The translations under genes were made by a program, and so were the position numbers. DNA of 64,000 nucleotides from Pseudomonas fluorescens. GTDB taxonomy: Bacteria; Pseudomonadota; Gammaproteobacteria; Pseudomonadales; Pseudomonadaceae. Positions 50,527 through 52,314 of this stretch are shown piece after piece (position 1 is the stretch's first letter; every line of letters starts with the position of its first letter). The notes beneath the pieces are model-generated. The model saw only the letters and a list, made by a program, of their open reading frames with translations, made no database searches and was not told the DNA's origin. Location: the NCBI RefSeq assembly GCF_900215245.1, contig NZ_LT907842.1, forward strand, positions 5,022,001 through 5,086,000, given 5' to 3'.

Positions 50527-50547
50527 GAGGTTCACTGTGCTGTGTGG

Positions 50548-50575
50548 ATATACAAAGCGTATACGTTTCGTATAT
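50548..50575. promoter_or_regulatory. 28-bp palindromic operator upstream of parD-like/map
   Basis: Arms ATATAC.AA..CGTA and TACG..TT.GTATAT around a central GTATAC, with two mismatched base pairs. It spans the expected promoter of the minus-strand parD-like/map operon and is the likely binding site of the ParD-like protein. Position near the divergent leader means it might also affect the other direction. Confidence 0.6.
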
Positions 50576-50613
50576 CGCTCGTAAACCCCGGCGCGCTGAA
50601 AGGCGGTAGAGCA

Positions 50614-50642
50614 TTGACTTGCCGGGTGATCGCCGGTTAATT
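50614..50642 (+). promoter_or_regulatory. Possible sigma-70 promoter for the leader/ilvA transcript
   Basis: TTGACT, 17-bp spacer, TTAATT. The -35 is good, the -10 poor. The start site would fall almost at the leader ATG, making the leader near-leaderless unless a promoter farther upstream is used. Confidence 0.3.
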
Positions 50643-50649
50643 TCGTTGC

Positions 50650-50715
50650 ATGACTTTTCAAGCCTTCCGCAGCCAGCCAAGCATTATTACCGCCATTCCT
50701 CATTTGGCGGGATAG
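50650..50715 (+). CDS. Putative attenuator leader peptide (21 codons)
   Basis: An ATG-initiated 21-codon frame ends at TAG (50713-50715). Codons 12-16 read Ile-Ile-Thr-Ala-Ile (ATT ATT ACC GCC ATT), exactly over the 5' arm of the first of three competing RNA stems that precede a terminator and then the threonine dehydratase gene. This is the layout of branched-chain/threonine attenuation leaders. The ribosome-binding site is weak. Too short for ordinary gene finders. Confidence 0.6.
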   Translation: MTFQAFRSQPSIITAIPHLAG

Positions 50716-50760
50716 CGCACGGCTGCACCCAAACCCGCCCTAGAGGCGGGTTTTGTTTTT
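50690..50760 (+). terminator. Attenuator: competing stems and intrinsic terminator before ilvA
   Basis: Stem 1:2 pairs CCGCCA (50690-50695) with TGGCGG (50705-50710). Stem 2:3 can pair GGCGGG (50706-50711) with CCCGCC (50734-50739). Stem 3:4 is the terminator AACCCGCC/GGCGGGTT (50732-50752) with loop CTAGA and a TTGTTTTT tail. No plus-strand gene lies upstream to need termination, which supports a role in regulating the gene below. Confidence 0.7.
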
Positions 50761-50799
50761 CCGTCTCCAGCGCCCTATACAAAACGCCAGGAGACACCC

Positions 50800-52044: not shown

Positions 52045-52314
52045 ATGCTTTCGGAATTAGAACTTCGCAGCATTATTGAAGGAAGTTTCCTGCCCAAACG
52101 GTGTGAATGCACCAAAGCCGAAGATGCTTCGCTGACGATCAAGGTCTATGACGACCGCGACCGCGACCGCGTGGATTTGGAAGTCAAAGGCATCAACGCC
52201 GATAAACTCGACAGCAGTCGGGCCATTTGCAATCTCATCAGCGGGTTGCGCGAAGACCTCAAGCATACCCATACACCCGCTCTGCAAAGAGTCGGCGCGC
52301 GCGGCTATTACTAG
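52045..52314 (+). CDS. DUF1652 protein
   Basis: This 89-residue protein (LSELELRSIIEGSFLPKRCECT, then SLTIKVYD and VDLEVKGI) belongs to DUF1652, a small cytoplasmic family confined largely to Pseudomonas and of unknown role. AGGAGAGG sits just before the ATG; a TTG two codons earlier is open but less apt. Its TAG stop interlocks with the stop of the converging gene. Confidence 0.85.
   Translation: MLSELELRSIIEGSFLPKRCECTKAEDASLTIKVYDDRDRDRVDLEVKGINADKLDSSRAICNLISGLREDLKHTHTPALQRVGARGYY

Follow-up and report, generated by a model that had tools for sequence, protein, structure and literature searches.

Threonine dehydratase is the isoleucine-committing enzyme, and the stretch of Pseudomonas fluorescens DNA analyzed here (64,000 nucleotides; "the window") carries an ilvA-type gene for it behind a short reading frame and a terminator. 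How might this arrangement control ilvA, and to what would it respond? We put at roughly 0.83 the probability that the element is a leader-peptide transcription attenuator, isoleucine responsive and with a leader that is itself leaderless, a judgment that comes from sequence comparison.

An earlier note on this DNA had proposed classical leader-peptide attenuation. The 21-codon frame with Ile-Ile-Thr-Ala-Ile at codons 12 to 16 on which it built was confirmed by ORF reading, and conservation of the frame, codons, and alternative stems gives the proposal strong support at the sequence level. The stems 1:2, 2:3, and 3:4 can form as described, but four RNA segments are present rather than the three that were counted. 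The 3:4 stem with its T-tract, described as an intrinsic terminator, was called as such by a terminator scan.

We predict the following course of events. Transcription would begin on A50650 or a neighboring base, so that the leader's first codon would form the 5′ end of the RNA and translation would be leaderless. When Ile-tRNA (perhaps also Thr-tRNA) is scarce, a ribosome would stall at codons 12 to 14 or 16 and cover segment 1, 2:3 would form before segment 4 is made, and the polymerase would read into ilvA. A ribosome at the stop codon would cover segments 1 and 2, and 3:4 would form and release an RNA of ∼111 nt ("P9"); without translation, 3:4 would likewise terminate. A second layer may be added by a hairpin that hides the Shine-Dalgarno sequence of ilvA.

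Table 1. Features before and at ilvA in the window
Feature	Position	Strand	Basis or remark
-35 box TTGACT	50614..50619	+	36 nt 5′ of leader ATG; comparison of distinct leaders
-10 region TTAATTT	50637..50643	+	Hexamer 50637-50642 or 50638-50643; T-rich position conserved upstream of ATG
Leader ORF MTFQAFRSQPSIITAIPHLAG, 21 codons	50650..50715	+	Predicted start is the transcript's first base
Control codons Ile-Ile-Thr-Ala-Ile (I12-I13-T14-A15-I16)	50683..50697	+	Conservation of ATT ATT and ACC, motif-picked set
Segment 1 CCGCCA	50690..50695	+	Partner of segment 2
Segment 2 TGGCGGG	50705..50711	+	Partner of segment 1 or 3
Segment 3 CCCGCC	50734..50739	+	Partner of segment 2 or 4
Segment 4 GGCGGG	50745..50750	+	Partner of segment 3
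Intrinsic terminator (3:4, 50731-50753) plus T-tract	50731..50760	+	Terminator scan, conservation
Rfam RF00624 P9 match, 3′ part of leader	50680..50754	+	Rfam covariance hit
Predicted hairpin GTCTCC (50763-50768)/GGAGAC (50790-50795), hiding ilvA Shine-Dalgarno	50763..50795	+	
ilvA-type threonine dehydratase, 340 aa	50800..51822	+	PALP domain only

The terminator scan found two terminator-like sites, against 0.8 expected from shuffles, and the leader region has a more stable predicted fold than its dinucleotide shuffles (z, −3.15; equaled by 1 of 200). Elsewhere at the locus, a near-perfect 30-bp palindrome (GATATACAAAGCGTATACGTTTCGTATATC, 50547 to 50576, 26 of 30 positions symmetric when counted by eye) lies just upstream of a divergent ParD-like gene (minus strand, start at 50529), after which comes a gene for a type I methionine aminopeptidase; the palindrome is likely an operator of this pair. 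A DUF1652 gene (52045 to 52314) lies 3′ of ilvA.

Conservation of the leader frame and its alternative stems

The enzyme's protein was searched for in 298 genomes of the genus, with matches in 295, and the same genomes were searched with RF00624, with 224 matching at an E value of ≤0.001 and 217 above the cut-off. A set of 323 loci (L001 to L323) was reduced by exclusions to 295, which gave 252 distinct leaders; copies of one genome may both occur in this set. In 23 loci the motif found no core: L140 to L149 (weak P9 matches, seven of which were subsequently assigned by eye to a second leader type), L150 to L154 (further dehydratase-like genes in the genome of the window), L305, L306, L308, and L309 (Met-Ile-Met-Thr), and L315 to L318 (outside the distance allowed by the motif). 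A further five were excluded for an altered terminator pattern (L175 and L208) or for lying at the locus edge (L190, L239, and L288); an in-frame start was absent only in L190 and L288, both at the edge. The first motif overlooked L028, which is nonetheless included among the 252. The four Met-Ile-Met-Thr leaders belong to one genus and retain the RNA segments; L304 and L307 of the same genus read Met-Ile-Ile-Thr.

Leader and gene are consistently found together. All 30 of the best-scoring ilvA loci found by protein alone (L001 to L030) have the leader, 29 by script and L028, in which Ser replaces Thr, by eye; conversely, an ilvA match follows the leader in each of the best 30 P9 loci, in some cases truncated by a contig end. 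Adjacency was checked in the fetched loci: an ilvA match lies ≤1,000 nt from 243 of the 252 distinct leaders, and of the nine others, six loci end ≤276 bases from the core and L319 to L321 have none.

The frame itself is kept more often than chance would give. In 242 of the 245 distinct loci covered by this test, the first ATG past the promoter shares the frame of the Ile-Ile-Thr core (one-third expected), and the peptide is 20 to 22 residues long in 244/252. The Ile codons are ATT ATT in 250/252 and the Thr codon is ACC in 251/252, counts that are biased upward because the selecting motif favors Ile codons; the first-ATG test is the cleaner of the two because the leaders were motif picked. 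Ten of the 252 leaders have an indel 3′ of the Ile-Ile-Thr codons that gives a C terminus of WRAC or WRAS and leaves the upstream frame intact, and L130, the only one of these in the alignment, retains the RNA segments. The window element thus has a short ORF with conserved, in-frame codons (Ile-Ile-Thr) for the amino acid of the regulated pathway, and by sequence an intrinsic terminator precedes the structural gene.

Stem statistics were drawn from a 32-leader alignment that includes distant families, and folding was done on 41 representatives. Pairing 1:2 holds in 97.4% of alignment cells, with a compensatory change (G-C to A-U) in five sequences at one pair; this count was matched by 0 of 500 shuffles, but having one pair that changes in this way was not unusual against shuffles. 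The 2:3 stem is formed in 192/192 cells and tolerates a C-to-U change in segment 2 of six sequences as U-G, and 3:4 is formed in 97.3%; neither gives covariation beyond shuffles in this alignment, because both hardly vary. In distant families, 1:2 is rebuilt from different sequences, and GGYGGG and CCCGCC are unchanged. For P. aeruginosa, the predicted partner of segment 2 is not segment 1 but a CCCGCC-type stretch that comes earlier in the leader.

Folding predictions agree with the proposed switch, with one qualification. With segment 4 still to be transcribed and a ribosome stalled on the first of the Ile codons, the nascent RNA forms 2:3 with a probability of 0.84 to 1.00 in 41/41 representatives. 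The 3:4 stem has a probability of 0.95 to 1.00 in all 41 without a ribosome and 1.00 with one at the stop codon; the ribosome-free probability of 1:2 is <0.5 in three (L155, L176, and L322). At equilibrium, the terminator beats 2:3 in the stalled state in 36/41; antitermination would have to be kinetic, because the terminator is favored in these once segment 4 exists. Mutually exclusive antiterminator and terminator structures that overlap an ORF are therefore possible and conserved in sequence. The earlier note had looked to conservation of the Ile/Thr codons and stems for a check on its proposal, and both are conserved along with the terminator, as is the frame.

A further control layer is probable downstream, where pairing models place the ilvA Shine-Dalgarno sequence, contained in GGAGAC, opposite GTCTCC. 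A recognizable ilvA Shine-Dalgarno sequence is present in 40/41 representatives, and in all 40 at least three of its five bases pair with upstream sequence (against mononucleotide shuffles, z has a mean of −2.5 and is positive in L319). Covariation, from 226 sequences (104 distinct), is modest: outer pairs are complementary in 151/208, with 5 of 1,000 shuffles as good. A relay in which segment 4, once antiterminated, frees the Shine-Dalgarno sequence (4:5) was unsupported, the mean predicted free Shine-Dalgarno fraction being 0.12 with the terminator and 0.14 with segment 3 occupied (40 representatives); folding of this relay thus revealed no opener of the hairpin.

Promoter geometry and the predicted leaderless start

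The -35 box begins 35 to 38 nt 5′ of the leader ATG in 244/252 distinct leaders and 42 to 43 nt in three, and it is not recognizable in five; position −1 is C in 248/252. A generic promoter scan called no promoter upstream of the window leader, and the window promoter therefore rests on this comparison. By standard sigma-70 spacing, which relates +1 to the -35 box, a box 35 to 38 nt upstream puts +1 on the A of the ATG or next to it; the leader transcript should begin there and be translated as a leaderless mRNA.

The absence of a Shine-Dalgarno sequence fits the same prediction. In the 204 of 252 leaders used for this test, Shine-Dalgarno energy is ≤−5 kcal/mol in 6%, against 96% of ilvA starts and 21% of random 20-mers. 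The earlier note had regarded the poor ribosome-binding site as the weak point of its proposal: the site is indeed poor, but the weakness vanishes if the leader is leaderless, which would explain it. Among ten leaders compared, eight have a -35 box with at least 5/6 matches at 35 to 38 nt, and L316 and L333 do not. There is a precedent in Sinorhizobium meliloti rnTrpL, whose 5′ end, according to passages of PMC7298713, is the ATG of trpL; for P. aeruginosa, a section of PMC3460626 reports 60 genes without any 5′ untranslated region.

Enzymes, other target genes, and identity with P9

The window enzyme has only a PALP domain, with no ACT domain found, and its best NCBIfam models are threonine ammonia-lyases. 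From this absence, which it also described, the earlier note argued that control had moved from protein to RNA; that argument is rejected, since leaders also precede enzymes of ACT length and the window's genome retains an ACT-bearing ilvA1 (504 aa, two Thr_dehydrat_C stretches). Behind the 252 leaders are 124 short enzymes (≤400 residues), 3 intermediate ones, and 81 long ones (≥440 residues, a measure of ACT length by residue count, with domains scanned in L335 only); 12 others are cut and 32 are partial or without an ilvA match. The seven short enzymes of the fluorescens-type rows group in a single clade (100/99), nested among long relatives that carry the leader, and the short enzymes of L304 and L307 lie on long branches elsewhere in the tree.

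The leader tracks the presence of two ilvA genes. A strong P9 match occurs in 201/201 sampled genomes of the genus with two ilvA matches and in 13/94 with one; of 82 genomes without a strong match, 81 have one ilvA match, one has none, and none has two (eight weak-P9 genomes are counted here, of which G229, at 45.6 bits, exceeds the Rfam cut-off). The only P9 match of the window's genome lies in the window, and ilvA1 has none; in one clade (L031, L050, L057, and L069), the gene behind the leader groups with ilvA1 of the window's genome.

Between terminator and ilvA, one ilvA clade (L031 to L037, L039 to L041, L048, L049, L052, L054, L057, L066, L069, and L126) has a second small frame with its own Shine-Dalgarno sequence, often beginning MII, ending in TTR or PTR, and often overlapping the ilvA start (ATGA). 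It occupies the place of the DUF4440 gene in other species and may be what is left of that gene or serve in coupling. In L085, L086, L090, L091, L096, L099, L106, and L127, the interval between terminator and ilvA holds REP-like inverted repeats (CTGCCGAAGG... and similar).

Other genes also follow such leaders. In a P. aeruginosa record (L335), the order is leader MTFATLLTRRSIITAIPAMAG, a gene for an SgcJ/EcaC protein (DUF4440/SnoaL), and an ACT-bearing ilvA. The DUF4440 gene (2619 to 3026 of L335) overlaps the ilvA start, and its product is a possible partner of threonine dehydratase. The order leader-DUF4440-ilvA was also seen by eye in other genera of the family (L164, L171, L177, L178, L311, and L322). 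In L315, L316, and L319, part of one genus group, the stretch contains no ilvA match; there, a leader of the MNAANRTFQQIITTIAPMVG type precedes genes for a DUF4440 protein, a P-loop kinase (AAA_33), and a methyltransferase (domains scanned in L316 only).

Weak P9 matches in the window's genus are largely (7 of 10 loci) a second leader type. Eleven loci of this type that were examined (five identical) read Ile-Ile-Thr-Thr (four), Ile-Ile-Pro-Thr (four), or otherwise (three); a downstream frame is present in nine, with DUF4440/SnoaL in four and AAA_33 in five. No -35 box with 5/6 matches was found in any of the 11 (five have 4/6 at 35 nt), and the leaderless start is therefore not extended to this type. 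A model (R3) built from 11 second-type and distant leaders matches 145/199 genomes of the genus, mostly at ilvA leaders (57 bits for the window's leader), and gives only one further weak candidate in the window's genome (23 bits; E value, 0.89).

The wider distribution is patchy. Large class-wide searches, with stricter filters, matched 4 of 274 (R1) and 5 of 369 (R2) genomes, the window's own counted in each; within one family, R2 matched 1/13. Outside the family, R2 finds the architecture in four genomes besides the window's own, with DUF4440-type genes behind the leader in three (L330, L331, and L333) and, in the fourth, the gene of a P-loop protein that reaches no AAA cut-off, together with a GNAT gene. 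A pattern scan of genomes gave at least one Bordetella locus with leader and ilvA. The P. aeruginosa leader had no match in phages and matched only its own source record among plasmids; the window leader matched three plasmid records, namely, that same record and two with short matches (38 to 39 query bases). L331 gave short matches in 47 plasmid records, none covering >19% of the query among the 25 listed, and in three of these records that were examined, no ilvA or DUF4440 gene was annotated there.

The 3′ part of the window leader is a full-length match to RF00624, "Pseudomonas sRNA P9" (87.8 bits; gathering threshold, 43), and the P. aeruginosa segment matches at 89.8 bits. P9 thus appears to be the 3′ portion of a leader-peptide attenuator. 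An apparent tandem P9 in G007 is an assembly artifact, a run of N separating the two copies. In the open-license PMC papers searched, no function for P9 was found, nor, by title or the start of the abstract, any report of an ilvA attenuator in Pseudomonas or of P9 as a leader; a term search of parts of PMC5542712, PMC3460626, PMC3247240, and PMC2965389 gave nothing on either. The new points here are that P9 matches this leader, that the leader is predicted to be leaderless, that a hairpin probably hides the ilvA Shine-Dalgarno sequence, and that the target genes extend beyond ilvA.

Three other explanations can be set against an Ile-specific attenuator. A general switch for slowed translation, answering to several amino acids or ribosome inhibitors and using the Ile codons as mere pause sites, would account for related leaders before DUF4440, P-loop kinase, and GNAT genes, which are not biosynthetic; that similar leaders precede genes without a known role in isoleucine supply is a point against Ile specificity. 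Yet no part of the leader varies less than the Ile codons (in a motif-picked set), and the usual target in the window's genus is threonine dehydratase, tracked in 201/201 two-ilvA genomes; we regard such a switch as unlikely. P9 might instead be an independent trans-acting small RNA that merely lies before ilvA, its reading frame incidental: Rfam types RF00624 as a gene, and the terminator would release an RNA of ∼111 nt. This is hard to reconcile with an in-frame ATG at the promoter in 242/245 loci, retention of all three stems, and same-strand placement before ilvA or DUF4440, and we consider it very improbable, although the released RNA could also act in trans. A fixed terminator that insulates ilvA without regulation would agree with the near-certain 3:4 stem of all ribosome-free representatives, but it would require neither segment 1, segment 2, conserved codons, nor the position of the stop, and we consider it very improbable as well.

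The attenuator reading gives a named Pseudomonas RNA a testable function, adds a candidate for leaderless attenuation in a genus that is well studied, and places a predicted small protein-coding frame across P9. It also suggests that nonbiosynthetic genes (DUF4440 and kinases) are tied to isoleucine supply; with DUF4440 between leader and ilvA in P. aeruginosa, the link to threonine dehydratase is directly testable. More tentatively, at somewhat less than even odds, P9 would be not a small RNA family but a family of Ile/Thr-codon attenuators, most of them leaderless, that became joined to several unrelated genes (ilvA, DUF4440/SgcJ-EcaC, P-loop kinases, and GNAT), in part through horizontal transfer; scattered genes would then answer together to isoleucine shortage or slowed translation.

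Comparison with known systems

The enterobacterial attenuators of ilvGMEDA, thrABC, trp, and his combine a peptide containing cognate codons, mutually exclusive 1:2, 2:3, and 3:4 stems, and a terminator. The window leader resembles them in its short peptide with codons for the regulated amino acid, its exclusive stems, and its intrinsic terminator. Unlike them, it has no Shine-Dalgarno sequence, lies at the predicted transcription start, and is followed by a probable Shine-Dalgarno hairpin. It reaches the threshold of none of the enterobacterial leader families of Rfam, with only RF00513 (Trp_leader) appearing at an E value of ≤5 (18.4 against 41 bits). RF00624 is the same sequence as 50680 to 50754 of the window, typed in Rfam as a gene and read here as the 3′ part of a cis-acting leader. 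The trpL/rnTrpL element of S. meliloti, described in passages of PMC7298713, is a tryptophan attenuator that acts on trpE(G) in a different class of bacteria; unlike the window leader, it has a known 5′ end and reported effects in trans.
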